Of a DNA stretch of 55,251 bases, positions 11,319 to 48,617 are shown piece by piece. Both the position numbers and the translations under genes were made by a program. The stretch is from an uncultured Oscillospiraceae bacterium (GTDB lineage: Bacteria > Bacillota > Clostridia > Oscillospirales > Oscillospiraceae), in NCBI GenBank assembly GCA_951801655.1, contig CATONV010000008.1, positions 1 through 55,251 of the forward strand, read 5' to 3'. Position 1 is the first letter of the stretch, and every line of letters starts with the position of its first letter. The notes under the pieces were generated by a model, which saw only the letters and a program-made list of their open reading frames with translations, had not been told where the DNA came from and did not search any database.

Positions 11319-12038
11319 CTATGATTTGACCGCCCCGGTCTCCAACTGTAAATAGGTGTCCGGAACCTGGCCCACGATCACCGTCTCGGCCACACACAGA
11401 CGGGTGTGGAGATGAGTCTCCACCTCCCCGCCGGGGAGCAGCAGCTTCATGGGGATGTCTACCTCAAGCCAGATGCGGTGGAGGGTCTGGTTCACGCCTG
11501 CGGAGGTGAGTTGGCTGTCAAACTCCGTGCGCACCGTCCCCACAGTCATAGACTTGGCCTTGATGGCTGGGCCCTTGGCCCACAGGGGTTCCAGGTCGAA
11601 CAGGCTGCCCAGGGGCACTTGGACATCAGACACGTCCACTCCCTCCAGCGCCTCCAGAATGGCGGCAGTTAGCTCCGCCCGGAGGAGATTCATCCCAGCC
11701 ATGTCGGTGGTCAGAGCGGTGATGGCGCCACCCTCATCCCGCTGGATGGTGACGAAGTCGCCGTAGCTTACCTGCCGGGCGGCCAGGTCGGCAGTAACGG
11801 CGTTTTCTACCACGGCAGTCATGGTATTCTGTGCCTGAGCAGAAGCGATCTCCGCTACCGCGGGGCGCAGCTTGGTTTCCAGCAGGGCGATAATCGACCC
11901 GGCTACCACAAGCGCCACCGCCATGGTTATCAGGGTCGGGGGAATTTTCAGTTCAGGACCAGGGCCCGTCCACACTGGTTTCCTACGGGCTGCCGGCCTG
12001 CGCATATACCGGACAAACTCTCGCCGCCAGGGCCCCAT
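11319..12038 (-). CDS. yunB: sporulation protein YunB-like
   Basis: A 239-residue protein with an arginine-rich N-terminus, one membrane helix (about 32-52, PPTLITMAVALVVAGSIIALLE) and an extracytoplasmic domain. VPLGSLFDLEPLWAKGP, SQLTSAGVNQTLHRIWLEV and GQVPDTYLQ match YunB, a sigma-E-controlled sporulation protein of Bacillus of unclear biochemical role. The start is preceded by GGGGGTGAGG. It lies 16 bases upstream of the VanZ-like gene on the same strand. Confidence 0.88.
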   Translation of the reverse strand: MGPWRREFVRYMRRPAARRKPVWTGPGPELKIPPTLITMAVALVVAGSIIALLETKLRPAVAEIASAQAQNTMTAVVENAVTADLAARQVSYGDFVTIQRDEGGAITALTTDMAGMNLLRAELTAAILEALEGVDVSDVQVPLGSLFDLEPLWAKGPAIKAKSMTVGTVRTEFDSQLTSAGVNQTLHRIWLEVDIPMKLLLPGGEVETHLHTRLCVAETVIVGQVPDTYLQLETGAVKS

Positions 12039-12088
12039 ATCCTCACCCCCTATAAGGTCAGGATATTCCCAAGCGGGCTTGACCTATG

Positions 12089-12415
12089 CTACCAGTCCCG
12101 TTCCCGGATGGCCTCCTCCACATCGATTGGAATACCAAACCACTTCAAAATGTAGCCCACAGTTGTTCCGATACAGTCACGGGCCACGGTCTCGATCTCG
12201 CTGTCGTTCTCGTCAAATTCATTCTGCAGGTCATTTACCGCGCAGACCGCCTCGTCCAGCTTCTTTTGGATGACCTCAGTATCAGTCTCGCCGTACTCCA
12301 GCAGGTCAATGACCTTCTGAAGCTCCGCCTTCACTTTGTCCACCAGAAAATCAGGGTAATAATCGTCCTGGTACATTTCATCCAACAGCTTATAGTTCGC
12401 ATCAAACGCTTTCAT
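12089..12415 (-). CDS. DUF5713-like protein
   Basis: A 108-residue acidic helical protein. YYPDFLVDKVKAELQKVIDLLE and the acidic tail VDEEIRE-type region match the DUF5713 pattern (recognition from memory). The start at 12415 follows GAGGGGAAC; the ATG at 12430 overlaps that ribosome site. No function is known for the family. It sits between the methionine gamma-lyase family gene and yunB. Confidence 0.72.
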   Translation of the reverse strand: MKAFDANYKLLDEMYQDDYYPDFLVDKVKAELQKVIDLLEYGETDTEVIQKKLDEAVCAVNDLQNEFDENDSEIETVARDCIGTTVGYILKWFGIPIDVEEAIRERDW

Positions 12416-35633: not shown

Positions 35634-36260
35634 ATGTTTCATTATGAGAAAAAACTGCAGTTCCCAGTGAAAATCGCTACCCCTAATCCCAAACTGGCTG
35701 CTTTTATCATCAGTCAGTACGGTGGGCCGGACGGCGAGCTGGGTGCCTCTATGCGTTACCTGTCCCAGCGGTACTCAATGCCATATGCCGAGGCCAAAGG
35801 ACTGCTCACTGATATCGGCACGGAAGAGCTGGGCCATATGGAGATGGTGGCAGCCATTGTCCACCAGCTGACTCGGAACCTGACCGACGAGGAGGTCCGG
35901 GCTACCCCCGCCTTCGCCCCCTACTTCGTAGATCATACCACCGGCGTCTACCCCACCGCCGCCTCCGGCTTCCCTTGGACCGCCGGCTCCATCCAGTCCA
36001 CCGGAGACCCGATCGCTGACCTGACGGAAGACTTGGCTGCGGAGCAGAAGGCCCGCGTAACCTACGACAACATCCTGCGGCTGTCGGATGACCCGGACGT
36101 GAACAATGTCATCCGCTTTCTCCGGGAGAGGGAAATCGTCCACTTCCAGCGGTTCGGCGAGTGCCTGCGGCTGTGCAAGGAGAAAATGGACACTCGGAAT
36201 GTGTACCTCACAAACCCGGCGTTCGACAAAATTCAGCCTCGGCCCGCCGCACAAGGCTGA
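35634..36260 (+). CDS. cotJC: spore coat protein CotJC, manganese catalase family
   Basis: A 208-residue ferritin-like four-helix protein of the manganese catalase family, placed in the inner spore coat. Metal-ligand-type motifs are DIGTEELGHMEMV (residues 60-73) and the region AAEQKARVTYDNIL / REREIVHFQRFGE. The start codon directly follows the stop of the CotJA-CotJB gene, so the two are coupled. A clear terminator ends the operon. Confidence 0.93.
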   Translation: MFHYEKKLQFPVKIATPNPKLAAFIISQYGGPDGELGASMRYLSQRYSMPYAEAKGLLTDIGTEELGHMEMVAAIVHQLTRNLTDEEVRATPAFAPYFVDHTTGVYPTAASGFPWTAGSIQSTGDPIADLTEDLAAEQKARVTYDNILRLSDDPDVNNVIRFLREREIVHFQRFGECLRLCKEKMDTRNVYLTNPAFDKIQPRPAAQG

Positions 36261-36263
36261 CAA

Positions 36264-36297
36264 AAAAGGGATCGGGCCAAAAGCCCGGTCCCTTTTT
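36264..36297 (+). terminator. terminator of the cotJ operon
   Basis: A 13-base stem with one mismatch (AAAGGGATCGGGC with GCCCGGTCCCTTT) around CAAAA, followed by TTTTT. It marks the left edge of the accessory island. Confidence 0.9.
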
Positions 36298-36395
36298 CAC
36301 ATTCGCTTAAGACGGCGGATTGCCTTGGAATTTACCCCCAGCAGCCGCAGGACGCCCTGAGAAACATTGTCCACCTGTTTGCCGTTCACATCCAA
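36297..36395 (-). other. possible gene remnant at island edge
   Basis: On the minus strand a 32-codon open stretch reads LDVNGKQVDNVSQGVLRLLG then VNSKAIRRLKRM and ends at 36297, with a stop codon just upstream and no ribosome site. It could be the truncated 3' end of a gene lost when the island arrived. I do not recognise it and it may be chance. Confidence 0.25.
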
Positions 36396-36451
36396 GGGAT
36401 ACGTTTACTGCACTTGGATTCGAAAAAGAGCAAAAAATGCCTGCTGAAGTA

Positions 36452-36520
36452 TTATTTTAGCCGATGTCCTCTTTTAATTCAATATGCGGTAGCTGAAACA
36501 GCCAAATTTCGCTAAAATAA
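36452..36520. repeat. inverted repeat upstream of the serine recombinase
   Basis: TTATTTTAGC (36452-36461) and GCTAAAATAA (36511-36520), perfect 10-base arms 49 bases apart, ending 39 bases before the serine recombinase start. Res or inversion sites of small serine recombinases usually lie at this place, so this AT-rich stretch is a candidate site; it might also be only promoter DNA. Confidence 0.4.
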
Positions 36521-36559
36521 ACTGATATTCCACAAATAATTCTTAGGAGGAAATCAGGA

Positions 36560-37204
36560 ATGTCAAGAACATTTGGCTATGTCCGCGTATCCACCAAGGG
36601 ACAGAAAGAGGACCGGCAGTTGATCGCGATGAGGGAATTCGGAATTCCCGAGGAACACATTGTAATAGAAAAGCAGTCCGGAAAAGACTTTTCCCGCCCG
36701 GTCTACCTCCGTCTCACAGAGGCGCTGGAGACCGGAGACGTGCTGGTTGTCAAAAGCATAGACCGCTTGGGCCGCAATTATAAAGAAATCCTGGAGCAGT
36801 GGGCCGGCCTCACCAAAGAGAAGGGAGTCGCAATCGTTGTGCTGGATATGCCTCTGCTGGACACCCGTGCAGACCGGGACCTCACAGGCATCCTGGTAGC
36901 GGACATCGTACTCCAGATTCTCAGCTACGTAGCCCAGACAGAACGGGACTTTATCCGTCAGCGGCAAGCCGAGGGCATTGCGGCAGCCAGGGAGAGGGGG
37001 GTGCGCTTCGGGCGGGAGCGCATCCCCATGCCCGAACACTTTTCTGAACTGGCGGAGGACTGGTGGTATGGCAGGGTCAGTGCGGTGCAGGCCGGCAGAG
37101 AATTGGGGATTTCCCGTACCACATTTAAAAATCGGGCCGAGGAATGGGGCGTGGCCGAAGGTCTTGAGCGGCGAGCGGTAAGATGGCCGCCGTCCGGCAG
37201 ATGA
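36560..37204 (+). CDS. small serine recombinase (resolvase/invertase)
   Basis: A 214-residue recombinase. The catalytic N-terminal domain (1-140) has the nucleophile in YVRVSTKGQ (Ser12) and the arginine motif SIDRLGRN; the long E-helix is DIVLQILSYVAQTERDFIRQRQAEGI. The C-terminus (155-205) has a helix-turn-helix of the Hin type (VSAVQAGRELGISRTTFKNR). All expected residues are present, so it should be active. AGGAGG lies eleven bases before the ATG. It sits at the left edge of the RADAR-like island and is probably its mobility or inversion module. Confidence 0.93.
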   Translation: MSRTFGYVRVSTKGQKEDRQLIAMREFGIPEEHIVIEKQSGKDFSRPVYLRLTEALETGDVLVVKSIDRLGRNYKEILEQWAGLTKEKGVAIVVLDMPLLDTRADRDLTGILVADIVLQILSYVAQTERDFIRQRQAEGIAAARERGVRFGRERIPMPEHFSELAEDWWYGRVSAVQAGRELGISRTTFKNRAEEWGVAEGLERRAVRWPPSGR

Positions 37205-37281
37205 CCCGGCTATGATCTCCTCTAGAGTAATAAAAAGGACTATTTTATACAAAATTTGAATTTTACGTTTTAAAGGTACTC

Positions 37282-37310
37282 TTGACTGCCTGTCTCCGGT
37301 GTGATATAAT
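37282..37310 (+). promoter_or_regulatory. promoter of the RADAR-like operon
   Basis: TTGACT (37282-37287), 17-base spacer, TATAAT (37305-37310). It is the strongest promoter in the island; the transcript would start near 37317, at the foot of a long hairpin. Confidence 0.85.
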
Positions 37311-37319
37311 GGCAACGGT

Positions 37320-37377
37320 TTTGTGCATTATGCCATGTTGCAAATATTTTTCATTAGTCGCCGGCATATTGCACAAA
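37320..37377 (+). promoter_or_regulatory. 5' leader hairpin of the RADAR-like operon
   Basis: A 15-base stem with one mismatch (37320-37334 with 37363-37377) and a 28-base AT-rich loop, starting at the predicted transcript start. It leaves about 65 further leader bases before the chosen start at 37443. It may stabilise the message, regulate it, or serve as a binding site. Confidence 0.65.
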
Positions 37378-37442
37378 GAAGCGTCTCTTCCTCCTTTGCG
37401 TCACTGGGGATGCCCTGTTTCCGCAAGGGTTATTGTATTCCC

Positions 37443-39494
37443 ATGGATGAATATTTATGCATAGGCCCAGAGAGGGTGGTTGTAGTGGGTGTCCACGACT
37501 CGAGGACATACTTTTCCAGAATAGCCAAGGAAATACTGGGCAGCGATTATGAGAGCTTTGTGCGCTTCTTCGTCAGTCTCTTTTCGAGCTGCCTTGAGTT
37601 GGAACGTGCGGGGGCTAATAAATATTTTTTTGTTGCCTTTCTCACCCGCAGGTGCCATGTACTTTTCGAAATTTTTTCGGAAATATTATTTCTGCTCGAT
37701 GACCACCCCCTCCTGCGTAGCTATGGAATTACTGCAAAACGCGCAAAATCGATCATCGAGGAGCACTTCATCACAGACAACAATCTGGTGGCCCAAGCCG
37801 GCAAAATCGCCGATATCTACTCTGAGTTTGAAGTGTTTCCCGAGGTTATCATCGCGGACGAGATCATACTGCACGGTCGGGCTGTCAATAGTCTTCTGCT
37901 GCAGTATGAGCGTGCGGTTATGGGACGACTGAGCTGCAAGCCCGAAATGAGCGAGTCCCGCCGTTCCATCGCGATGGAATGTCTGGTCAATTCCATTCAG
38001 CTGCGTATTTATGCTCAGAATGACGAGCCCCTGCTGCTGCTGTCCCGCTACCGCCACCAGCTCGTCTGCGACCGGCTCTGTAACCCGATCCAGGTCCGGG
38101 AGCTGTCGAAAAAATTTGCGTCCCTTGTCAACAACAGCAATGTCAACAATGTTACCTACTCCTGGAACTTTAAAATTCCCAGCTATCATGCCTCCAAGTG
38201 GGAATACCTCCCCCCTCCCCCGCACTTCACTCAGGTCAGAACACATCAAAAACGGATTTATCAGACCTGCTACTTGTGGGCTTACCCGAATCCCCGCCGT
38301 CCCAAGGCGGTGTGTACCATTCGTTGGAGGCGCCTCAGCGCCGCCTCCGGGGAACTGCGGGACCTTATGGTAATTCCGTTCATCATATTTGATCATGTCC
38401 CCAGAGAAAATCTGGTACGTTTGCACCGTCGCCTCTGTCAGGATTTGCGGGAACTAAAAAATGCATCAGACTTCCTTACCAGTTGTGATCTCTACGCCGT
38501 CGGCCCCTGTGAGGAGCATTATCTGTGTTGGATCTCCGAAACCAACGACCTGATGCTTACCTACCTGCTACTCAAACGCTTCGCCGGAAACTCCCTTTCG
38601 CTGCTGACAAAAAATCTGCAGACCGCCCTTCTTGCCCGTAACTTTAAGAGAATCTCCCGGAAAGGGGCAGATCATCAGCAGATAGTAAATGCTTTGAAAG
38701 AAATCTGGTCCTGGGAACCTCCCTGTCAGGATCAGTTGGAACAGTACTTTGACATCCTGCTGGAGGGAGCTCAGCCCCTGTGGACCTCCGAAGAGTTGGA
38801 GTGCATCCCCAACTGTGTTACCGTGGGGAACACGCCGGAAGATCGGCTGCTGACCCGCGCTGTGGAGGATACCATTGCCGCCATTGGATACGAGGCGGAG
38901 CAAAACGCCTGCGAGAAGTACTCCAGCGGAATTTTCTTCTCCGATCAGACCCTGGCTGACTGGGGACGGCGATACTCCTGTGCGGAGGCGCTGTCCATCT
39001 GCGCCCGGTTCTGGGAAAAGGCGGAAACCGGAAAACCGCTAAACCGTTACGGCACTCTGGGTCTGATCGTTCAGCACATGGATCTTGGTATTATTGGAAT
39101 GAATCCTTACCACACCGGCCCGTCTGATACGCTGTACACCATGGTACGGGCGGGAGAACACAGCCTTTTCATCAAACCTACCCGCTATCAGGATTATATC
39201 CCCGTCCTGATTGCCATCGATAAGAGATGCCACGATAGCCAGCTGAATCTGCGCCGCGAGTTGGAGAGATTTATCAGCTGCCTCCCTGCTGCGATGTTAG
39301 ACGTGACGGTCGATGAGCTGTATGGCTTTATGCGAAGTCTCAAACGGGCAAACCAGAAGATCAAGGATTGGGATTTTTTGCTGTTCGACCAGATCAGCCT
39401 CCAGGATAGACGGCATGAAAGCCGTGCGCTGGAGTATCTGTCCAAGAGCTTTGCCAAACAGGTCTTTTTGCTCCAGGAATATCGAAAAATCTAA
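37443..39494 (+). CDS. unknown 683-aa protein, first gene of the RADAR-like operon
   Basis: I do not recognise this protein. It is soluble, mixed alpha/beta, without signal peptide, membrane helix or Walker motif. Near the N-terminus it has ERVVVVGVHDSRTYFS. At about 135-147 it reads VIIADEIILHGRA, which loosely recalls the PRPP loop of phosphoribosyltransferases (hydrophobic strand, two acidic residues, glycine turn), a weak resemblance only. A Cys-rich middle (about 270-400) and an IVQHMDLGIIGMNPYHT segment (near 545-560) are notable. The ATG at 37443 is chosen because the promoter start is near 37317; a GTG at 37323 would leave almost no leader. No close ribosome site is visible for either. 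It precedes rdrA by 58 bases with only a hairpin between, so it is probably part of the same defence unit. Confidence 0.8.
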   Translation: MDEYLCIGPERVVVVGVHDSRTYFSRIAKEILGSDYESFVRFFVSLFSSCLELERAGANKYFFVAFLTRRCHVLFEIFSEILFLLDDHPLLRSYGITAKRAKSIIEEHFITDNNLVAQAGKIADIYSEFEVFPEVIIADEIILHGRAVNSLLLQYERAVMGRLSCKPEMSESRRSIAMECLVNSIQLRIYAQNDEPLLLLSRYRHQLVCDRLCNPIQVRELSKKFASLVNNSNVNNVTYSWNFKIPSYHASKWEYLPPPPHFTQVRTHQKRIYQTCYLWAYPNPRRPKAVCTIRWRRLSAASGELRDLMVIPFIIFDHVPRENLVRLHRRLCQDLRELKNASDFLTSCDLYAVGPCEEHYLCWISETNDLMLTYLLLKRFAGNSLSLLTKNLQTALLARNFKRISRKGADHQQIVNALKEIWSWEPPCQDQLEQYFDILLEGAQPLWTSEELECIPNCVTVGNTPEDRLLTRAVEDTIAAIGYEAEQNACEKYSSGIFFSDQTLADWGRRYSCAEALSICARFWEKAETGKPLNRYGTLGLIVQHMDLGIIGMNPYHTGPSDTLYTMVRAGEHSLFIKPTRYQDYIPVLIAIDKRCHDSQLNLRRELERFISCLPAAMLDVTVDELYGFMRSLKRANQKIKDWDFLLFDQISLQDRRHESRALEYLSKSFAKQVFLLQEYRKI

Positions 39495-39502
39495 TTAAAA
39501 TG

Positions 39503-39537
39503 GATGGGCCAAGGGGTTTTTAACCACTTGGCCCATC
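39503..39537 (+). promoter_or_regulatory. hairpin before rdrA
   Basis: A 16-base stem with one mismatch (39503-39518 with 39522-39537) and a TTT loop, eight bases after the upstream stop and just before the GGGGGGAGA ribosome site of rdrA. No T run follows, so it is not a standard terminator; it may be an RNA processing or translation-control element. Confidence 0.7.
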
Positions 39538-39552
39538 AAACGGGGGGAGACT

Positions 39553-42552
39553 ATGAATATCAAGCCGGATACCTTTATTACCATTAAACAGGGCGAGGAA
39601 TATCAATCCCGCGAGGAAAACATTTATCAAAAAAACTCTTTTTTTGCCGCCTCCTACCGCCAGGCCGCAGACTGCCTAAAAGAGATCATCGCGGCAAACC
39701 GATTATTTAAAGGCAATTCGGGCAGCCCCTGTGTGGACGACCAATCTGACGCCGCCATCAACCAGCATCTTTTGGGGTATCCCAATAATATTATTGCATT
39801 TTGTGCGGAGAGAGGCCAGGGAAAAACCAGCGCCATGGTCTCTTTCTCCAAGGCTTTGCGGGAACTCCACCCTTCCACTGCTCCGCAGGCCTACTGTCAG
39901 GATGCGGCGGAGGAGGATTCTTGCCTGGAGAGAAAGTCCGACTTTTGGAAGACCAACGACGACTTTAATGTTCAGGAGTGCCACTTTGTGGTGATCGACA
40001 GCATTGATCCCACCACCATGGAGTGCAACGATTCCATCATTAAGGTAATCCTCTCCAGGATGTTTAACCAGTTCCAGACAGAGTGGGAAAAACGGATGGA
40101 AGAGCCGGCCTTTGACCGCAATCACAGGGAGAGCAAGCAGTCGGAGCGGATCGAACTGTTGAAAATGTTCCAAAAGTGCTACCATAATTTGCAGGTTATA
40201 GACAGCAAAACCTACAGTCCGGAGGATGACCTGCTGGAACAGATGATGGAACTGGGCAACAGCTCCAATATGCGTGGCGCCATGTTCCGCCTCATCCGTA
40301 AATTTTTAAGGTTTATGTGCCGGAACAGCTGCCAAGCCTACCTGGTTGTCCAGATAGACGACGCAGACTTCAACATTGACCTGGCCTACAAAATCATTGA
40401 CGATATCCGCCGCTATCTGGTTCTGCCCCAGGTGATTGTCCTTCTCTCCGCCAACATGTCCCAGCTGGAGACCACGGTGGAACAGTACTTTATTCACCAG
40501 TACGAGACCTCCATTAAAAACAAAGGTCTGGCCACTGTAGCCCGCTGCCACGATATCGCCGAGAGGTACATCAGCAAGGTGATTCCCGGCTATCACCGGA
40601 TCTACCTGCCAGACCTGCAGAAGGCCCTGATGACAGAGTATGAACATCTTCAGGTCAAGTATCTGGATTCCAAGGGGCACAACATCCTGGACGAGAAGGC
40701 GCGAAAACCAGACGAGAACATAATGGAAGCGGAGGTGGTTTACTCCTACCAGAACCAGCTCCTGCGCTTCCTCTATCAGCGTACCGGGATCATCCTGCTT
40801 AACCCGGAAAACTTCCTTCACAATCTTTTGCCCGGCAACATGCGGGAGCTGACCCACTTCCTGGCCTATTTCAATCAAATGGAGAAGCTGGGTATCGATT
40901 ATTTTACCCTGGTCGACTATTTTTCCGGACAAAAGCCCTTTGACCACGGAAAAATTGCGACCTGGCGCAGAAATTTGGCCCTGACTGAGCGTTACCTGCT
41001 GGAGCTGTGGGCGCCCGTCAACCTGCGCGCCGAGGGACACACCATCCTGCGCAGCCTGCGTAACGAGGCCGACGAGAACAAAAATCGATACCTGCTGCAA
41101 ATTCTCCCTGACTACTATGGACGCGAGCGGGTGGAGTTCAATCGGATCAGCGGAGCGTTTGCGCTGACAGAGGCGGAGTACCGTGACGGTTTTATCCAGA
41201 CTTGTCAAAATCATGGTCTCTCGATTTATGGTATGCCGAAGGAAGATGCCAACGAGTCTGGCGCCTCTGGGGAAGAAAAATCGGAAATTGAACGATCGGA
41301 ATCCGATATTTTTGACTCCGAATGCGAAAACGCCTCCTATGCGGATGTCTGTGAAGCCCTGAATGTTCTGTCTGCCCTCCCGGGCAACAACCGGCAGTAT
41401 AAGTTGATCTATGCGCTGCATGTGTTTTACACGATCCGCCTGCATCAGCTCTTATTGGACCAAATTGAGCTCTCGGAACCTATCGTAGAACTCAGGCTGG
41501 AGGAACTGGGGCGTTCTGCAGGCGACGACGTGCCGCCTGAGATAAATATTCAGGTGGATAACCATCTGGTACGATTTTTAGCGGATGTTCTGTATAAACG
41601 GAAGGATCTGTGCCGGAAGCCGCAAGGCTTTGCGCTGTGGCAGTATGATCTTAATATTGCTGATCTGCAAAAAGTCTGTGGTGCCGAAACTTCTCTCAAT
41701 TATGATTTCTTTAGCTTGGTCGCCACCTTCTGCCGAAACATCAAGCCCGTTAATCACAGTTATGTCAGTCTTCCAATTGTCAATGAGGAATTTAAAGGTC
41801 TAACTGACGAACATGATTTGCTTCGCTTTAATTTCTTCTACTCTAACCTACGGGATATTGACATGCTTAATTCCGTAAATCCAAAAAGTTGGAGAGAATA
41901 TTGCAGAGATAATCATTTGCGCCAAAAAATGGTTGGTTCTTTTGCGCTTTTGTTGAATTGGGATGTACAGTATACGTTACTTAGAAATTTACGGTATCAT
42001 AAGCTGAATGCCAATGATATTTTGGAGAGTATGCGTGGTGTCTATACCGGGGAAGATACGCTTCGGTTGTTAGAACAAATCAGTTATCTTACTGATCAAC
42101 CACGCTATAAAAATGTCTTTAAAGTGTATGACGACTATCTGCAAGCAAAAGAGTTTGGCTATGGAATTCATCATACTCTTTTAGGTCAAACGAGTATAAT
42201 ATTGTCTCAGATAAGAACAAATATTGCTTCCGCTAGAAGATTTATCAACAAAGTTTTGGAAAATCCGTCTCAAATTGAAACGTCTAAACAGCCTGATACG
42301 GAAATTGACCATAAGCAAATTAAAGTTCGAGACCTTGTTGAGCAGAATTGGATCAGCGATTACATTATTAACATTCATCAAATGATAGTCCCCCTGATAT
42401 ATCTGCAAGGCGGCAAACTGACAGAAGAAAAACAAAATATTCGTGACTTCACATTAGCTCAGACAGAAGAGCTTTTGGACAAATATATCGAAATATTAGA
42501 CGTTCAAGAGAAGAAAAGCGCGAAGCACTACCAAACCAAAACTGACAAATAA
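39553..42552 (+). CDS. rdrA: RADAR ATPase RdrA-like
   Basis: A 999-residue P-loop ATPase. Walker A is ERGQGKTSA with K91; the Walker B strand is YLVVQIDDADF with D269-D270; LLSANMSQLE follows as a sensor-like strand. This KAP/AAA-type core with a long helical C-terminal part fits RdrA, the ring-forming ATPase that works with the deaminase RdrB in RADAR. The identification rests on the ATPase features, the length and above all the adjacent deaminase. The last third (from about 41690) is visibly more AT-rich than the first two thirds, with codons unlike its neighbours. rdrB follows after 44 bases. Confidence 0.82.
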   Translation: MNIKPDTFITIKQGEEYQSREENIYQKNSFFAASYRQAADCLKEIIAANRLFKGNSGSPCVDDQSDAAINQHLLGYPNNIIAFCAERGQGKTSAMVSFSKALRELHPSTAPQAYCQDAAEEDSCLERKSDFWKTNDDFNVQECHFVVIDSIDPTTMECNDSIIKVILSRMFNQFQTEWEKRMEEPAFDRNHRESKQSERIELLKMFQKCYHNLQVIDSKTYSPEDDLLEQMMELGNSSNMRGAMFRLIRKFLRFMCRNSCQAYLVVQIDDADFNIDLAYKIIDDIRRYLVLPQVIVLLSANMSQLETTVEQYFIHQYETSIKNKGLATVARCHDIAERYISKVIPGYHRIYLPDLQKALMTEYEHLQVKYLDSKGHNILDEKARKPDENIMEAEVVYSYQNQLLRFLYQRTGIILLNPENFLHNLLPGNMRELTHFLAYFNQMEKLGIDYFTLVDYFSGQKPFDHGKIATWRRNLALTERYLLELWAPVNLRAEGHTILRSLRNEADENKNRYLLQILPDYYGRERVEFNRISGAFALTEAEYRDGFIQTCQNHGLSIYGMPKEDANESGASGEEKSEIERSESDIFDSECENASYADVCEALNVLSALPGNNRQYKLIYALHVFYTIRLHQLLLDQIELSEPIVELRLEELGRSAGDDVPPEINIQVDNHLVRFLADVLYKRKDLCRKPQGFALWQYDLNIADLQKVCGAETSLNYDFFSLVATFCRNIKPVNHSYVSLPIVNEEFKGLTDEHDLLRFNFFYSNLRDIDMLNSVNPKSWREYCRDNHLRQKMVGSFALLLNWDVQYTLLRNLRYHKLNANDILESMRGVYTGEDTLRLLEQISYLTDQPRYKNVFKVYDDYLQAKEFGYGIHHTLLGQTSIILSQIRTNIASARRFINKVLENPSQIETSKQPDTEIDHKQIKVRDLVEQNWISDYIINIHQMIVPLIYLQGGKLTEEKQNIRDFTLAQTEELLDKYIEILDVQEKKSAKHYQTKTDK

Positions 42553-42596
42553 CTCCTTTACTGGCGAAACCTCATAGAAAAGAGAGAGAAAAAACT

Positions 42597-45266
42597 ATGA
42601 CGGAAACGCAAGCGCACATCCGGGTGCTGTTCCAGCAGGCCCAGCCGGAACTGTTGCTACGGACAATCCAGGACAGGTCGTCCGAGAGGCATCTTCCCCT
42701 TCTCAGCGCCCAGGGCCTCTCCCAGGAGGGCTATCTTCACTGTGCCCGGGCGGCCATGCTGGAACGCTCCGAGGACGAACTGTCTCAGTTCTACTATGAC
42801 TTGGCGGACTATCTGCGCACCAGGCCGACTGGCGGTATTTTCTCCCTACTGGGCATATACTCTGAGGGGATTCTTCGATTTTCCGCCGGAGTGCCCCGTT
42901 GCAGGATGGAAAAACTTCTGGACTGGCGGGAGCTGTCTCTGGAGCTGGGCCAGGACCTGTTCACCTGTGCTGGGCTGGCCTGGGAGGACTGCCGCGAGGG
43001 GTGCAGGACCACCAATTTCTGCTGGCCAACCGCCATCCGCATCGACTGTGCCGAGCTGTACGACATGTTATCCCGGCAGCTGTCGGAAAACCACTACCAC
43101 CTCAACGGTTCTACCCAGTGCTTCCCGCTGTCCTGGGCCTTTCTGATGAACCATCCGTCCAAAATCGCCCAGTATTTTTCCGACAGTAAATTTAATGAAA
43201 ATCTGCGGCAGGGCGCCCATTTCGGCCCCGGCGACAATGTAATGCCCTGGAAAGACCGGGTACTCTGCGCCGCCTGGCTGAGGACCTGTCTCTTTCAGTG
43301 TATCCGTGACCCAAATTATATTGCCAAATGCAGGCTGGACCGTTTTTTGGACTCCCTCGCCCCATTGAGAAATACCCAGCAGCAGGTGGAGAGTCTGCGC
43401 TTTCTCTATGGCGCACAGTTCGAGCAGCCGGACGGGCTGACCAAATGCCTGGACTACGCCATCCCCACCGACGTGGAACTGGAGTGCCGCTATGCCACTC
43501 GACTCCTGGCCGGGGAACGCCGTCTTCTCTACGACTGCTTTAAGGTCTGTTATAGTACAAAAGGACTTACCTCAGAAGGGCAGCATGTGTTTCAAAACCT
43601 TTTCTATCTCTATCTTTTGATCAAGATACAATTCCGCCGTGAGCTCATCCAGAGTAACCAACGCTATGGATTCCGCAATTTTTCTGAGTATCAGGACCGC
43701 AAGGCCCATGTCTGGGGCGACTTCCCTGAATACTGGAGCGAGTCCTACCGGCTGTCCATCTCGGCGGTACTGGATGTTCCTGTCCACTCTTTGGAAATGC
43801 GGGTCATGACCGGCTTTAACGCCGACCAGCTGAAGCAAAACATCCTGTTGCCAGATCGGTATTCCTATTTCCATCTGCTCCAGCTGAAGGGGGGCGCAGA
43901 GCGGCTGGAGCCAGGCAGTACCAGCCGCTTTCACACATACGCCCAGGAGCAGGATAGCCACTTTTTTGTTCTGCACTTTGCCAAGTCGCCGCTGGAACGG
44001 ATATCGGAGGAGGATTTCTCAGATTTTCTCCCAAAGGCACGCTACCACCCCCTGCGGACCTCAGTGGAGAAGCAGGCCAAGACCATCGCCCGCTCCATGG
44101 AGAGTGCGGGCTACCTGTGCAGCCGTGTCCGCGGGATTGACGCCGCCTCCCACGAGGTTGGCTGCCGTCCTGAAGTCTTCGCTACCGCGTTTCGCTTTCT
44201 CCGGAACTTCTCCCCGACCGGCCCGGCCCTGTTCCCCCGCTTCTGGCCCCTTCTTGGTGTAACCTACCACGCGGGGGAAGATTTTCTGGACATCGCGGAC
44301 GGACTGCGAGCCATTGACGAGGCCATCTGTTTTCTGGACCTGCGCTGCGGAGATCGAATCGGCCATGGCCTGGCCCTGGGCATCTCCCCCCGGGACTACT
44401 TCCGTCTCAAGCAGATGCGCATGATCCTGCCCGCCCAGGACCTGCTGGACAACCTGGTCTGGCTACTGTTCCGCAGTCTGGAGTGGGACATCTCCATGTC
44501 TCATATGCTCCGCGTCCAGCTGGAGCAGCGGGCCGAGGAGCTGTTTCGGCGGCTGTACTGGAAAAATACCCCCGATGCCACCCTGCGGGACTATTTCCAC
44601 AGCTGGCTTCTGCGTGGAGACGACCCCTCCCCTCTGAGCTGGCCCTCGGAGGAGCCTCCCAAACGGGCGGACGCCCGCTCTCAATTTCTCCGCTATCCCA
44701 AATTCAGGGAGCGCGTCCGGCGTCCTGACGAACCGGACCTGACGCTGTTGCGGCGTGATCGCCACGTCCGGCAGCTGCTGTACCGCTACCAGTTCGGCCG
44801 GGAAGAGCGCCTGGCCAGTCAGGCCCCGGAGAGCTTTCTCATTACGCCGGCCTATGTCGAGCTGATCGTTCAGTTTCAGGAGCAGATGATGCGGCGGCTG
44901 ATGGACCTGGGTATCTGCATCGAATGCAATCCCTCCTCCAACGTCCTGATCGGCACATTCCGCAAATATGAGAAGCACCCCATCTTCCGCTTTAACAGCT
45001 TTGGGCTCCAGGTCCCGGAGCACAAAGACGGCAACATCCAGCTGCGGGTCTCCATCAACACCGACGATCAGGGAATCTTTGACACCTCTCTGGAGAATGA
45101 GTACGCGCTGCTCTACTGCGGTATGTGCGCCCGTCGGGACGAGGCGGGCAATCCGGTTTTCAGTCAGGACGCCGTCTACGGCTATCTGGACCACGTGCGT
45201 GCCATGGGCAACGGGATGGTCTTCCCCAAGGCCCAGCTTCAGTATCTGTCCCGGCTGTACGACTGA
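42597..45266 (+). CDS. rdrB: RADAR adenosine deaminase RdrB-like
   Basis: An 889-residue, highly divergent member of the adenosine deaminase superfamily. All metal and catalytic motifs can be placed: HYHLNGS (H166 and H168), HAGED (H558, E561), RIGHG (H590) and NTDD (D823-D824); ECNPSSN before it is another family motif. A long insert separates the first two. In RADAR, RdrB deaminates adenosine (in RNA or nucleotide pools) to inosine during phage infection, assembled with RdrA. The active site looks intact. It overlaps nothing; a membrane protein gene follows after 14 bases. Confidence 0.87.
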   Translation: MTETQAHIRVLFQQAQPELLLRTIQDRSSERHLPLLSAQGLSQEGYLHCARAAMLERSEDELSQFYYDLADYLRTRPTGGIFSLLGIYSEGILRFSAGVPRCRMEKLLDWRELSLELGQDLFTCAGLAWEDCREGCRTTNFCWPTAIRIDCAELYDMLSRQLSENHYHLNGSTQCFPLSWAFLMNHPSKIAQYFSDSKFNENLRQGAHFGPGDNVMPWKDRVLCAAWLRTCLFQCIRDPNYIAKCRLDRFLDSLAPLRNTQQQVESLRFLYGAQFEQPDGLTKCLDYAIPTDVELECRYATRLLAGERRLLYDCFKVCYSTKGLTSEGQHVFQNLFYLYLLIKIQFRRELIQSNQRYGFRNFSEYQDRKAHVWGDFPEYWSESYRLSISAVLDVPVHSLEMRVMTGFNADQLKQNILLPDRYSYFHLLQLKGGAERLEPGSTSRFHTYAQEQDSHFFVLHFAKSPLERISEEDFSDFLPKARYHPLRTSVEKQAKTIARSMESAGYLCSRVRGIDAASHEVGCRPEVFATAFRFLRNFSPTGPALFPRFWPLLGVTYHAGEDFLDIADGLRAIDEAICFLDLRCGDRIGHGLALGISPRDYFRLKQMRMILPAQDLLDNLVWLLFRSLEWDISMSHMLRVQLEQRAEELFRRLYWKNTPDATLRDYFHSWLLRGDDPSPLSWPSEEPPKRADARSQFLRYPKFRERVRRPDEPDLTLLRRDRHVRQLLYRYQFGREERLASQAPESFLITPAYVELIVQFQEQMMRRLMDLGICIECNPSSNVLIGTFRKYEKHPIFRFNSFGLQVPEHKDGNIQLRVSINTDDQGIFDTSLENEYALLYCGMCARRDEAGNPVFSQDAVYGYLDHVRAMGNGMVFPKAQLQYLSRLYD

Positions 45267-45280
45267 TTCAGGAGGACACT

Positions 45281-45889
45281 ATGGGCGATTTTATCAAAGA
45301 CCTGAATATCATCGATTTTCTTGGGATGCTGCTGCCCGGCAGCCTGTACGTGATGGCGGCCAGGGATATGCTCCCTGTGGAAGAGCTGATGGGTTACTTC
45401 GGCGAAAACCCCGGAACCGCCCCCCGGATTACGCTGCTGATCGTGGCAGGTTATGTGATTGGGATGATCTTTCACGAGGTGGGCGATCTGCTGGAAAAGC
45501 TGCTGTGGATCTGCCCTCTCTTTGATCCCAGGACCTATGCTGCGGAACAGACCACTCTGGTCAGACAGGTGCGCGACCAGATCTCCGTCAGCCAGGGGGA
45601 CCCTCTGGAGTACATCCGCAAACGGGACCGAATCTTTCTCTCGGCGGTGGAGGGCAAAACAGACCTGCGCAAACGCAACCTCTTTGAGGGCTTTCGCACC
45701 ATGGCCCGCAATCTTCTGCTGGTCCTGCTCATGCTGCTCCTCTACCCGGGACTCTCTTTTCAGGAGAGGTGGCAGTCCGTTCTCTACACCGTGGCCTGTG
45801 TGATCCTCTTCCTGCGCTACTACCACTACTCTTTGCTCAAGTATAAATACAGCTACGAGGACCACCTGAACGAGGAGCAGGTCCGCTGA
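45281..45889 (+). CDS. small membrane protein, RADAR accessory candidate
   Basis: A 202-residue protein with two N-terminal helices (about 10-30 and 46-66), a charged cytosolic middle (70-145, RKRDRIFLSAVEGKTDLRKRNLF) and two C-terminal helices (about 148-166 and 172-190). Known RADAR loci often carry a third, membrane-spanning subunit of SLATT or Csx27 type; position and topology fit such a role, though I cannot place it in either family. The ATG at 45281 follows CAGGAGG. Confidence 0.75.
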   Translation: MGDFIKDLNIIDFLGMLLPGSLYVMAARDMLPVEELMGYFGENPGTAPRITLLIVAGYVIGMIFHEVGDLLEKLLWICPLFDPRTYAAEQTTLVRQVRDQISVSQGDPLEYIRKRDRIFLSAVEGKTDLRKRNLFEGFRTMARNLLLVLLMLLLYPGLSFQERWQSVLYTVACVILFLRYYHYSLLKYKYSYEDHLNEEQVR

Positions 45890-45921
45890 AATCCCACACC
45901 AGAAAAGAGGGAACGCCTTTG

Positions 45922-47724
45922 ATGACCTGCGTCCGCCGACTCCGGGCGGTCCGGCCGCTGCGCTGGGCCGGCTGGGCCAGTTTATGCCTTTTTCCCCTAT
46001 ATTGCTGTCTGGTCTTGGAGTACTACAATGCCGGTCGGCTGGAGTCTTTGCTCACCTTCTGGCAGAAGCACACGCTCCCCTCTCTGTTCGGAGTGCTGGT
46101 ATGCTGTGTTCTGTTTTCGATCGTCCTTCTCCTCTTCGGTCGGGCAGCGCCGGCCTGCGGCGTAGTGGGCAGCCTGTCCATTCTGCTGGCCTTCATCAAC
46201 TACATGAAGCTGGCCCTAAACGGAGACCATTTTTTCCCCAAGGATGTTCTCATGGCCGGCAAGGCAGGTTCTCTCCTCTCCTTTCTCAGCGGCGGGCTCC
46301 CAAAGTACATGGTCCCCGCCATTCTCCTGTTGGTATTCTGGTGCGCCGTCCTGGCGGTGTTGGGCCTGCGCCTGCCCATCCCCCAGACTGAGAGGCTGTT
46401 TTTTGCCGCCTCCGCCGCGTCGCTGTGCGCTGTTTTCTGCTCCGGACAGGCCCGGATGACCGACCTGCTGGAGAGGTTCACCATCCACACCGAATTTACC
46501 ATGCTCCAGAGTCTGAACTATGAGGAAAACGGATTTATCGGCGCCTTTGCCCTCAACCTGAACAGTATGGGTCTCCAGCAGCCCAGAGGGTACTCCCAAG
46601 AGTATGTAAATCAGCTGCTGGCCGGCTATGAGTGGACAAAGGCTGCCGGGGAAGCTTTCGATGTCATTCTTGTCCTCAGTGAGAGCTTCTGGGATCTGAG
46701 GGAGCTGCCCGGTCTCTCCTTCAGCCAAAATCCCTTGCCCCGCTACGATGAGCTGCTCAGCCGGGACAACTGCTACAGCGGTTCTCTGTTCACCAACGCC
46801 ATCGGCGGCGGGACGGTGCGTCCGGAATTTGAGATTCTCACCGGCCTATCTACTGAGACTCTGCCCAGCGGCGCTACTCCCTACGAGTACGTAGACCATC
46901 CCCTGGAGAGCTACGTGTCCAACTACAGGGACGCCGGCTACCGCACATTGGCCATGCACCCCTACGACCCCAGCTTCTACACCCGGAAAACCGCCTACCC
47001 CTTTCTGGGCTTCGACGATTTCTACGGCTGGGACGAGCTGGATCAGATGGGAGAACTCACCTACAAGCGGGGCTACACCACAGACCAGTCCTTTGAAGTT
47101 CTCATCGAGCAGGCACTGGACCAGTCGGAACAGCCCACCTTCCTCTTTGCCATCACCATGCAAAATCACCAGCCCTTCAACCCGCTGCCCCAGGAGGAAA
47201 TCACCCTGACGGTTACTTCGGACAGGCTGTCACAGGCAAATCTGGACGCGGTGACCACCTACGCTCAGGGTCTCTGCGACGCCGACCAAATGCTGGGAAC
47301 ACTGGCCGACTATGTGGACAGCCGGGAGAGGCCCACTTTGCTGATCTTCTTCGGTGACCACAAGCCCACCCTGGGGGCAAATTATGCGTCCTACGATGAG
47401 AGCGGCTACTTCTCCGCCGCGGACAACTATAACTTCCAGGCCCGAAAAAAGATGTACTCTACCCCCTTCCTCTTCTACTCCAACCGGGAGCTTGACCCCG
47501 GCCTGTTCGCCCAGAACACCGGAAATGAGCTGTCCAGCTACTACCTGCTGGATGTTGCAGCCCTGTGTACCGGCTTTCAGCGCACCCCCTATATGAATCT
47601 GCTGTTGGACTGCTATGAGGTCGCCCCCTTCTATAATGAGAGGCTTGTGATGGACATGACCTCCGAACTCTGGGAGTCCGTCCGAGCCCGGCACTGCGTC
47701 ACCTATGAAAGGCTTCACGGATAA
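45922..47724 (+). CDS. LTA synthase-like sulfatase-fold membrane protein
   Basis: A 600-residue protein with about five membrane helices in residues 15-185 and an extracellular sulfatase-type domain (about 230-590). Marks of the lipoteichoic acid synthase / phosphoglycerol transferase family: ILVLSESFWD with a metal-binding glutamate, GGGTVRPEFEILTG with the nucleophilic threonine, and FFGDHKP with the Asp-His metal ligands. It transfers glycerol phosphate or a similar group to a membrane or wall polymer. It follows the membrane protein by 32 bases and ends at the first strong terminator of the island, so it may be part of the same transcript. Confidence 0.88.
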   Translation: MTCVRRLRAVRPLRWAGWASLCLFPLYCCLVLEYYNAGRLESLLTFWQKHTLPSLFGVLVCCVLFSIVLLLFGRAAPACGVVGSLSILLAFINYMKLALNGDHFFPKDVLMAGKAGSLLSFLSGGLPKYMVPAILLLVFWCAVLAVLGLRLPIPQTERLFFAASAASLCAVFCSGQARMTDLLERFTIHTEFTMLQSLNYEENGFIGAFALNLNSMGLQQPRGYSQEYVNQLLAGYEWTKAAGEAFDVILVLSESFWDLRELPGLSFSQNPLPRYDELLSRDNCYSGSLFTNAIGGGTVRPEFEILTGLSTETLPSGATPYEYVDHPLESYVSNYRDAGYRTLAMHPYDPSFYTRKTAYPFLGFDDFYGWDELDQMGELTYKRGYTTDQSFEVLIEQALDQSEQPTFLFAITMQNHQPFNPLPQEEITLTVTSDRLSQANLDAVTTYAQGLCDADQMLGTLADYVDSRERPTLLIFFGDHKPTLGANYASYDESGYFSAADNYNFQARKKMYSTPFLFYSNRELDPGLFAQNTGNELSSYYLLDVAALCTGFQRTPYMNLLLDCYEVAPFYNERLVMDMTSELWESVRARHCVTYERLHG

Positions 47725-47726
47725 AG

Positions 47727-47761
47727 GCAAAGGAGAGACCCCGGCAGGGTCTCTCCTTTGC
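47727..47761. terminator. bidirectional terminator at the island's right edge
   Basis: Perfect 15-base stem (47727-47741 with 47747-47761), CGGCA loop, with TTTAT on both strands. It separates the sulfatase gene from the convergent radical SAM gene. Confidence 0.92.
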
Positions 47762-47762
47762 T

Positions 47763-48617
47763 TTATACTCTGAACCGGCTGGCAAAGCCGCATCGGCGGC
47801 ACAGTGCCTCTCGGGCGTTCCTCTGGGAAAAGCCGTTGTAAATCGCCTGGGCCCGGGGACTGTTTAAAATTTCCTCCAGCGTCTGGTTATAGAGGTTTCC
47901 CAGAGGGACATCCCCCTCGTGGTCCAGACAGCAGGGCACCACTGTCCCGTCCCACAGCACCCCCACCTGGTCCCGCAGACCATAGCAGAAGCAGTGCCCG
48001 TCCCCTTCCGGTGCGGACAGGTCAGGCCAGTTGAATTTTTCCCCCCACTCCAGATAAATGCCCGGGATCAGGGTGGTTCCGCGGCGCCCCTCCCGCCATG
48101 GCCCGGGAAAAGCCGCCTCCAGCGCAGCTAGGATTTCCCCGTTGCGCCGCCTGGCGCCCCGCGTGTCTGCGCCGTCTAAATTCCAAAGCCGGAGGGCACA
48201 TTTCTTCCCCGCGTCGCAGGCCCTTCGGGCAAAGCCAATACAACTCTCCAGATAGTTCTCCAGGCCCTCTCTCTCGTTGCCCTCAAAGGAGTGCAGGGAA
48301 ATACTCACCTTTTCCACCGCCGGACTGGCACAGAGACTCTCTTCCCACCGGTCCAGCAGGGTGCCGTTGCTGGTGATTATCACCCGGAAGCCCAGATCCG
48401 CCCCGCAGGCCAAAATGTCCTCCAGCCGGGGATGGAGCAGCGGCTCACCCATCAGATGGAGGTACAGGTACTCCGTGTGAGGGCGCAGCCGCCCTGCCAG
48501 CGTCCGAAATTCCTCTGGAGTCAGAAAACCCGGCTCTCTCCTGGTTCCAGGGCAGAACTCACAGCACAAATTGCACACGTTTGTAATCTCCAAATAGGCT
48601 TTTCTCAGCCGCCGCAT
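47763..48617 (-). CDS. radical SAM/SPASM protein
   Basis: A 284-residue iron-sulfur enzyme. The radical SAM cluster is CNLCCEFC (residues 14-21), followed by LHLMGEPLLHP and IITSNGTLLD; the C-terminal SPASM-like part has WDGTVVPCCLDHEGDVPLGN and CRRCGF. Such short members modify peptides or act in cofactor or sugar pathways. No small precursor peptide gene was seen next to it. The ATG at 48617 has AGGAG very close; a longer frame to 48863 lacks homology to the family. Confidence 0.85.
   Translation of the reverse strand: MRRLRKAYLEITNVCNLCCEFCPGTRREPGFLTPEEFRTLAGRLRPHTEYLYLHLMGEPLLHPRLEDILACGADLGFRVIITSNGTLLDRWEESLCASPAVEKVSISLHSFEGNEREGLENYLESCIGFARRACDAGKKCALRLWNLDGADTRGARRRNGEILAALEAAFPGPWREGRRGTTLIPGIYLEWGEKFNWPDLSAPEGDGHCFCYGLRDQVGVLWDGTVVPCCLDHEGDVPLGNLYNQTLEEILNSPRAQAIYNGFSQRNAREALCRRCGFASRFRV

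Follow-up and report, generated by a model that had tools for sequence, protein, structure and literature searches.

In its structural description (PMC9994260), RADAR is called a two-protein anti-phage system: RdrA assembles into a heptameric AAA+ ring and RdrB into a dodecameric shell, and infection causes ATP and dATP to be deaminated to ITP and dITP. A Csx27-associated subtype, rdrABC, is named in a commentary (PMC7699616), and the subtypes considered here are those given in the accessible parts of that commentary and of a review. In this study, we analysed a 55,251-nucleotide stretch of DNA (contig CATONV010000008.1 of assembly GCA_951801655.1, positions 1 to 55,251; hereafter the window) from an uncultured Oscillospiraceae bacterium whose genome assembly comprises 2.5 Mb in 150 contigs and is 89% complete. 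Judged by its sequence, the window carries a divergent four-gene operon of the anti-phage system RADAR on the forward strand, consisting of orf1, rdrA, rdrB and a Csx27-like membrane gene. Because ORF1 (the product of the first open reading frame, ORF) is confined to one RdrB clade and is located directly upstream of rdrA, we take the loci that bear it to represent a RADAR subtype not reported so far, whose conserved third gene is predicted to be phosphoribosyltransferase-like (PRTase-like).

Comparison with described systems

As in the Csx27-associated subtype, rdrA and rdrB are adjacent and a Csx27-like membrane protein follows; the window differs by the predicted PRTase-like gene at the start of the operon and by its very low identity to the characterised RdrA proteins (11-15% in Foldseek alignments). 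The AAA+ core and the deaminase active site align with those of the E. coli and S. suis RADAR (8fnu, 8fnt, 8fnv, 8hr7), whereas ORF1 has no counterpart in the two-protein system as far as the available text of PMC9994260 describes it. Cad1, the CARF-adenosine deaminase, shares the immune conversion of ATP to ITP by an adenosine deaminase domain, but it is a single effector fused to CARF and belongs to type III CRISPR (PMC11645235), and the RdrB of the window is far closer to the RdrB models. In type III retrons a PRTase-like protein is also tied to an anti-phage system; its partner, however, is a reverse transcriptase rather than rdrAB, and the likeness to ORF1 is one of description only (PMC12548924, available text). 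Among metabolic proteins, PyrR, hypoxanthine phosphoribosyltransferase (HPRT) and uracil phosphoribosyltransferase share with ORF1 the predicted fold of residues about 23-233 and the aligned loop region for phosphoribosyl pyrophosphate (PRPP), while ORF1 extends for about 450 further residues beyond this domain and most of the catalytic loop is absent from it. No paper joining a phosphoribosyltransferase with RdrB was found in the open-licence PMC literature, and a PRTase-like third RADAR gene is present in none of the family libraries or open-licence PMC papers that were searched. PRTase-type proteins are known in conflict systems from comparative genomics.

Identity of RdrA and RdrB

The initial annotation had recognised RADAR at 37282-45889 from motifs and gene order, and this identity is upheld by profiles, by alignments to solved structures and by the predicted fold of RdrA. 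Its three genes, rdrA, rdrB and that of the membrane protein, were correctly recognised, but the long gene orf1 within the same range was overlooked. The 999-residue P-loop ATPase and the 889-residue adenosine deaminase that it described were both confirmed as ORFs (Table 1), and all of the motif residues that it had placed are invariant. Lys91, Asp269 and Asp270 of RdrA are among the ten invariant columns of a 61-row alignment, which was composed of the window and 60 of the 68 RdrA ORFs with 740 or more residues, and the six deaminase residues are invariant in six aligned RdrB rows. Moreover, H166/H168 and E561 align to residues 152/154 and 501 of the E. coli RdrB chain 8fnv, as counted off the printed alignment. 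These are the residues that were altered in the H152/154A and E501A mutants of the E. coli RdrB structure study (PMC9994260, accessible text).

The AAA+ core of RdrA aligns with that of solved RADAR RdrA, and both its profile and its predicted model favour RdrA over other ATPases. Towards the C-terminal alpha-helical lobe of RdrA, the profile match to 8fnu extends to position 807 of 839, but the model is poor beyond about residue 660. The RdrB profile gave 2.4e-57 to RADAR RdrB compared with 5.7e-8 to the best other deaminase, Pfam A_deaminase covered only 77 residues of the protein, and the PADLOC CARF_ADA model matched at 1.1e-11, far below the scores of the RdrB models. The hidden Markov model search that had been proposed as a check returned the RdrA and RdrB models, although below the curated NCBIfam cut-offs (65.8 of 600 bits for RdrA and 209.3 of 800 bits for RdrB). 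The RdrB cut-off was also missed by all ten other RdrB relatives scanned, for which the NCBIfam RdrB model was still the only match at E<=1e-15; the RdrA and RdrB cut-offs are a naming rule and not a defining feature of RADAR. As the RdrB of the window and these ten relatives all miss the RdrB cut-off, RADAR may be under-counted in annotation. No RdrB relative was found in phages at E<=0.001, the 43 pattern matches in viral contigs contained no true relative, and seven records of a plasmid collection matched, one of them over at least 80% of RdrB.

In four other loci (L050, L059, L062, L063), from Chryseobacterium, Flavobacterium and one Fusobacteriaceae assembly, RdrA was divided at a similar place into two adjacent ORFs of about 310-333 and 480-696 residues, which may reflect genuine gene splits, frameshifts or programmed events.

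ORF1 in one RdrB clade

The genomic context was compared in 85 loci, i.e., the best 80 of at least 510 RdrB relatives that were obtained by scanning genome contigs with an RdrB alignment, and five further loci. A profile search revealed ORF1 homologues in 24 of them (22 distinct), and in each case the gene was located directly upstream of rdrA. The homologues are divergent in sequence, with 14-29% identity to the ORF1 of the window, and their hosts are mostly Clostridia, one locus (L019) being labelled Muribaculaceae.

A quick maximum-likelihood tree of 82 RdrB rows with SH-aLRT support and no bootstrap, from which four duplicate loci were omitted (L031, L034, L055, L063), placed all of the ORF1 rows in one clade of 29 rows (SH-aLRT 95); the tree contains long branches (L012, L013), uneven composition and two pairs of near copies (L018/L020 and L036/L053). 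This clade comprises 23 ORF1 rows, the window included, five rows cut at a contig end and L014. Consequently, ORF1 is present in 23 of the 24 clade rows with readable upstream DNA and in none of the 47 such rows outside the clade (37 with other upstream genes and 10 with the TPR-type gene described below), although four of these 47 (L042, L076, L083, L086) have just 0.9-2.1 kb ahead of rdrA. Six further outside rows are cut, including L082, whose contig begins at its first ORF, an ORF that does not match the TPR set. The ORF1 label changes seven times on the tree for 23 rows, compared with a mean of 20.2 after shuffling and with none of 500 shuffles as low, and part of the seven changes is due to the cut rows. 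ORF1 is thus inherited together with this clade. In the exception, L014, the match of the truncated rdrA to its profile begins at position 131 and no remnant of ORF1 was found; because this locus has 32 ambiguous bases, many of them within rdrA, decay and poor assembly look alike there. One distant ATPase that the profile called rdrA (L057) was kept out of the counts.

Other RADAR loci fill the slot ahead of rdrA with other proteins. In ten of them (L068, L069, L070, L072, L073, L074, L075, L078, L079, L080) it is occupied by a gene whose products, of 406-479 residues, are linked by BLAST, and these ten rows form an RdrB clade of their own. TPR models matched weakly at E<=0.1 in eight of the nine products scanned. 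The L074 product starts like a TIR domain, but no Pfam TIR match appeared. In L012 (2608-4542), a row just outside the ORF1 clade, the slot holds a different protein of 644 residues with a TPR_12 match (1.9e-6) and, by eye, a P-loop-like stretch.

Because the context loci had been collected by RdrB, linkage was additionally examined independently of RdrB in 400 genomes of the family of the window and 391 genomes of its class. ORF1 was found in four of the former, that is, in the genome of the window, in G340 and G383, where it stands together with rdrAB, and in G367, where a homologue of 706 residues (L098, 7372-9492, reverse strand) had no rdrA or rdrB within the 15 kb that were read of its contig (70.8 kb). 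G367 is also absent from the six genomes with an RdrB match. In the class, the only genome with ORF1 was that of the window. ORF1 is therefore rare and mostly, though not always, linked to RADAR. When phage and plasmid collections were searched with tblastn, ORF1 gave no match at E<=0.01, and it matched no Pfam, NCBIfam, PADLOC or PHROG family. At looser thresholds, neither the PADLOC families (in any of 23 ORF1 members) nor the PHROGs matched at E<=0.1, while Pfam at E<=1 gave 15 families, each matched by a single ORF1 member, with a best E of 0.017 and no PRTase among them.

Predicted fold of ORF1

The N-terminal domain of ORF1 is predicted to be PRTase-like, a candidate for the type I PRTase fold. 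When the AlphaFold2 model was searched with VIA-align, all 50 listed entries looked like PRTase-fold proteins, whereas Foldseek by itself left the fold unsettled. A fold search of BFVD returned nothing at E<=0.001, with a phage HPRT in the third row at E 0.35, and a profile search of the PDB with three ORF1 members returned nothing at E<=10. An hhalign comparison of 16 of the 23 ORF1 rows with eight of the 12 HPRTs that had been found by motif scored 29.8, which is above all of 200 column shuffles (best 22.3) and above the reversed alignment (13.7), although the reported probability was only 21%. In this comparison the PRPP-loop region of ORF1 was aligned with that of HPRT.

Among the 23 ORF1 rows, the loop retains D139 in 21, D or E at 140 in all, G145 in all and R146 in 20. 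Position 143, at which the HPRT loop has Asp, is hydrophobic in 22 rows and Ser in one; the Asp replaced there is presumably the catalytic one. Position 144 is taken by H, Y or C in 21 rows and position 147 by T or S in four. Hence the full HPRT catalytic loop, D-[ST]-G-x-T as read in related genomes (D-S-G-N-T), is not present in ORF1.

The ORF1-rdrA junction

The stretch of 100 bases behind ORF1 has a stable fold in 10 of 23 loci (the window and L009, L011, L016, L024, L027, L028, L035, L036, L053) at z<=-2.5, a threshold that was chosen after the junction folds had been viewed. The equal stretch behind rdrA has one in none of 23; the duplicates L031 and L055 were omitted. Two of the ten are near copies and one lies exactly at the threshold. 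By eye, several of these hairpins are terminator-like with a run of T, which that of the window lacks, and no shared sequence was seen among them. Loci with very short gaps between ORF1 and rdrA mostly have no hairpin. The hairpin may set different levels of ORF1 and rdrAB, or it may act as a switch.

Proposed role of ORF1 and alternative explanations

The best explanation of the locus as a whole, which we consider probable, is a four-gene RADAR operon in which RdrA drives deamination by RdrB and ORF1 senses the nucleotide state of the cell. By homology, the AAA+ ring of RdrA would dock onto the deaminase shell of RdrB, and upon phage infection the activated RdrB would convert ATP and dATP to ITP and dITP and thereby limit phage growth. 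The PRTase-like domain of ORF1 most likely binds a phosphoribosyl ligand, either PRPP or a nucleotide, and ligand-bound ORF1, possibly in contact with RdrA or RdrB, would license their complex or its expression, serving as a sensor ahead of the effector. We propose a sensing or regulatory role because the predicted fold of ORF1 is one for phosphoribosyl ligands and its catalytic loop is degenerate, because orf1 comes first in the operon and because other RADAR loci place other proteins, the ten TPR-type ones and the different TPR-bearing protein of L012, in the same slot. Taken alone, this role is a tentative assignment that may well prove wrong. If it is correct, nucleotide-pool sensing would be tied to a nucleotide-deaminating defence. 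A more specific and rather doubtful version is a PyrR-like switch, in which ORF1 would read the PRPP or nucleotide state, and its distortion by the phage would both activate RdrA-RdrB and relieve an attenuator hairpin between orf1 and rdrAB. In that case, a metabolic nucleotide-sensing fold would be the trigger of a nucleotide-destroying defence.

The main rival to the sensor role is that ORF1 is a second effector beside RdrB, i.e., an active phosphoribosyltransferase-type enzyme that spends PRPP or phosphoribosylates a target. The predicted fold, the conservation of the two acidic residues and of Gly-Arg in the region of the PRPP loop and the occurrence of PRTase-type effectors in type III retrons (PMC12548924, accessible text) are all consistent with this; however, the residues of the HPRT loop are mostly replaced at positions 143, 144 and 147, and we regard an enzymatic role as unlikely, if worth serious attention. 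As a marker of its clade with a predicted nucleotide-binding fold, in a slot shared with TPR-type proteins, ORF1 is a concrete candidate for either an infection sensor or a second effector.

ORF1 could also stand outside the RADAR reaction, as a passenger of this clade or as a protein that protects the host through nucleotide salvage. The orphan homologue in G367 points in this direction, as do the junction hairpins, some with a run of T, which suggest a partly separate transcript. Such a role is nevertheless improbable considering that ORF1 has kept the place immediately ahead of rdrA in 22 further distinct loci despite the low sequence identity, and that it is confined to one RdrB clade. Less probable still is that the N-terminal domain belongs to another Rossmann-like sensor type, e.g., SAVED- or CARF-like, that reads a signal nucleotide. 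Searched by sequence, the profile of the domain does match two SAVED-domain entries of the PDB (E 0.0071 and 0.014), its matches at E<=10 include no PRTase, and Foldseek alone does not decide the fold. Against this, hhalign of ORF1 with SAVED proteins of related genomes (an alignment of four divergent rows only) scored 16.6 with a probability of 0.2%, and the best of 60 shuffles of its columns reached the same level (16.5). The HPRT score, in contrast, exceeded all of its shuffles, and every listed VIA-align entry looked like a PRTase-fold protein. That the locus is not RADAR at all but an ATPase next to a metabolic adenosine deaminase can be dismissed as extremely improbable, since the low NCBIfam score of its RdrB is shared by the ten other RdrB relatives scanned, Pfam A_deaminase spans a small part of RdrB, and the RdrB profile as well as the RdrA profile and model indicate RADAR.

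The membrane gene

The protein of 202 residues encoded behind rdrB belongs, according to sequence comparison, to a Csx27-like family of the RdrC type. It matched no Pfam family, and in the PADLOC scan it matched only PDC-M48A (0.0013) and not Csx27; the assignment was made because its homologues match the PADLOC Csx27 model. An iterated profile search found relatives in five of the 85 context loci, four of them distinct (L010/L034, L013, L033, L069), which makes the family patchy across RADAR loci. All three relatives scanned matched Csx27 (L069 at 4.2e-11, L013 at 0.0018, L010 at 0.022), and that of L069 also matched PDC-M48A. The initial annotation had described a four-helix membrane protein in the place of a SLATT or Csx27-type accessory. 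Its length and a Csx27-like family agree with our results, but a simple hydropathy scan gave two segments above the threshold and not four. The frame is nested in a longer GTG-started frame.

In L033, the Csx27-like gene (2238-2951) is located downstream of rdrB on the opposite strand. In L077, a protein of 219 residues with one hydrophobic segment is encoded three bases behind rdrB (11610-12269) and matches at 1.3e-6 a PADLOC model with the label Effector, TIR.

Locus layout and genomic setting

The features of the locus are collected in Table 1. The gap between rdrA and rdrB is 44 bases. The open frame of ORF1 permits starts from 37323 onward, and the ATG used is provisional. The promoter-like site upstream agrees with the consensus at 11 of 12 positions and has TG ahead of the second hexamer; such sites are not in excess over the whole region (seven compared with a shuffled mean of 7.6). 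The Mn-catalase gene is taken to be cotJC-like.

Table 1. Positions of the features in and around the RADAR operon of the window.
Feature	Position	Strand	Evidence or remark
Mn-catalase gene	35634-36260	+	Pfam Mn_catalase 1.7e-55
Strong hairpin terminator 3' of the Mn-catalase gene, left edge of the RADAR block	36262-36300	+	-25.5 kcal/mol, z -6.9
Small serine recombinase, 214 aa	36560-37204	+	Pfam Resolvase 1.2e-29
Promoter-like site TTGACT-N17-TATAAT upstream of ORF1	37282-37310	+	Consensus match only
ORF1, 683 aa from ATG 37443	about 37443-39494	+	Conserved third gene of one RADAR clade
Predicted PRTase-like domain of ORF1, residues about 23-233	37509-38141	+	AlphaFold2 model, VIA-align, hhalign with shuffle control, conservation
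D139-E140-x4-G145-R146 loop of ORF1	37857-37880	+	Within the predicted PRTase-like domain
Stable hairpin between ORF1 and rdrA, no T run behind	39503-39537	+	-25.4 kcal/mol, z -4.7 (39495-39552)
rdrA, 999 aa, AAA+ ATPase, Walker A K91, Walker B D269-D270	39553-42552	+	
rdrB, 889 aa, adenosine deaminase, H166, H168, H558, E561, H590, D823	42597-45266	+	
Csx27-like membrane protein (RdrC type), 202 aa	45281-45889	+	Homologues match PADLOC Csx27
Sulfatase-family gene	45919-47724	+	Downstream neighbour of the membrane gene

The locus had been described as lying between two strong terminators. The left one was found, and it scores as terminator-like on both strands; on the right, a scan of 45860-47900 gave one terminator-like site, which is located inside the next gene, and the gap between the membrane gene and the sulfatase gene has no stable fold (z -0.49). 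In the congener G805, 190 bases separate the 3' part of the Mn-catalase gene from the sulfatase gene downstream of it (81% identical DNA), while at this junction the window has 9.7 kb (36229-45931) with the recombinase and the RADAR operon. Because G805 lacks these 9.7 kb between the same two genes, the sequences indicate that the block was gained or lost there; this comparison concerns one genome, whose Mn-catalase gene is itself interrupted, and no boundary repeat was established. The intact small serine recombinase that had been reported beside the locus is indeed present, but it is not a recurrent partner of RADAR. With two matches among 1029 context ORFs, a serine recombinase that moves a standard cassette was rejected as a general feature, though the gene lies inside the stretch that is missing in G805.

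The Mn-catalase gene is split in many congeners, with its parts 5-27 kb apart on one contig. This resembles the intervening elements of sporulation genes (gerE, sigK, spsM), and the word cotJC was absent from the papers found on these elements. The split point is near codons 131-138 in six genomes (G370, G275, G801, G795, G790, G819) and near codons 61-68 in two (G342, G815), and in G370 and G275 the two parts are separated by 12.8 kb and 5.6 kb, respectively. Large serine recombinase genes adjoin the break in L139, L146, L148 and L150.

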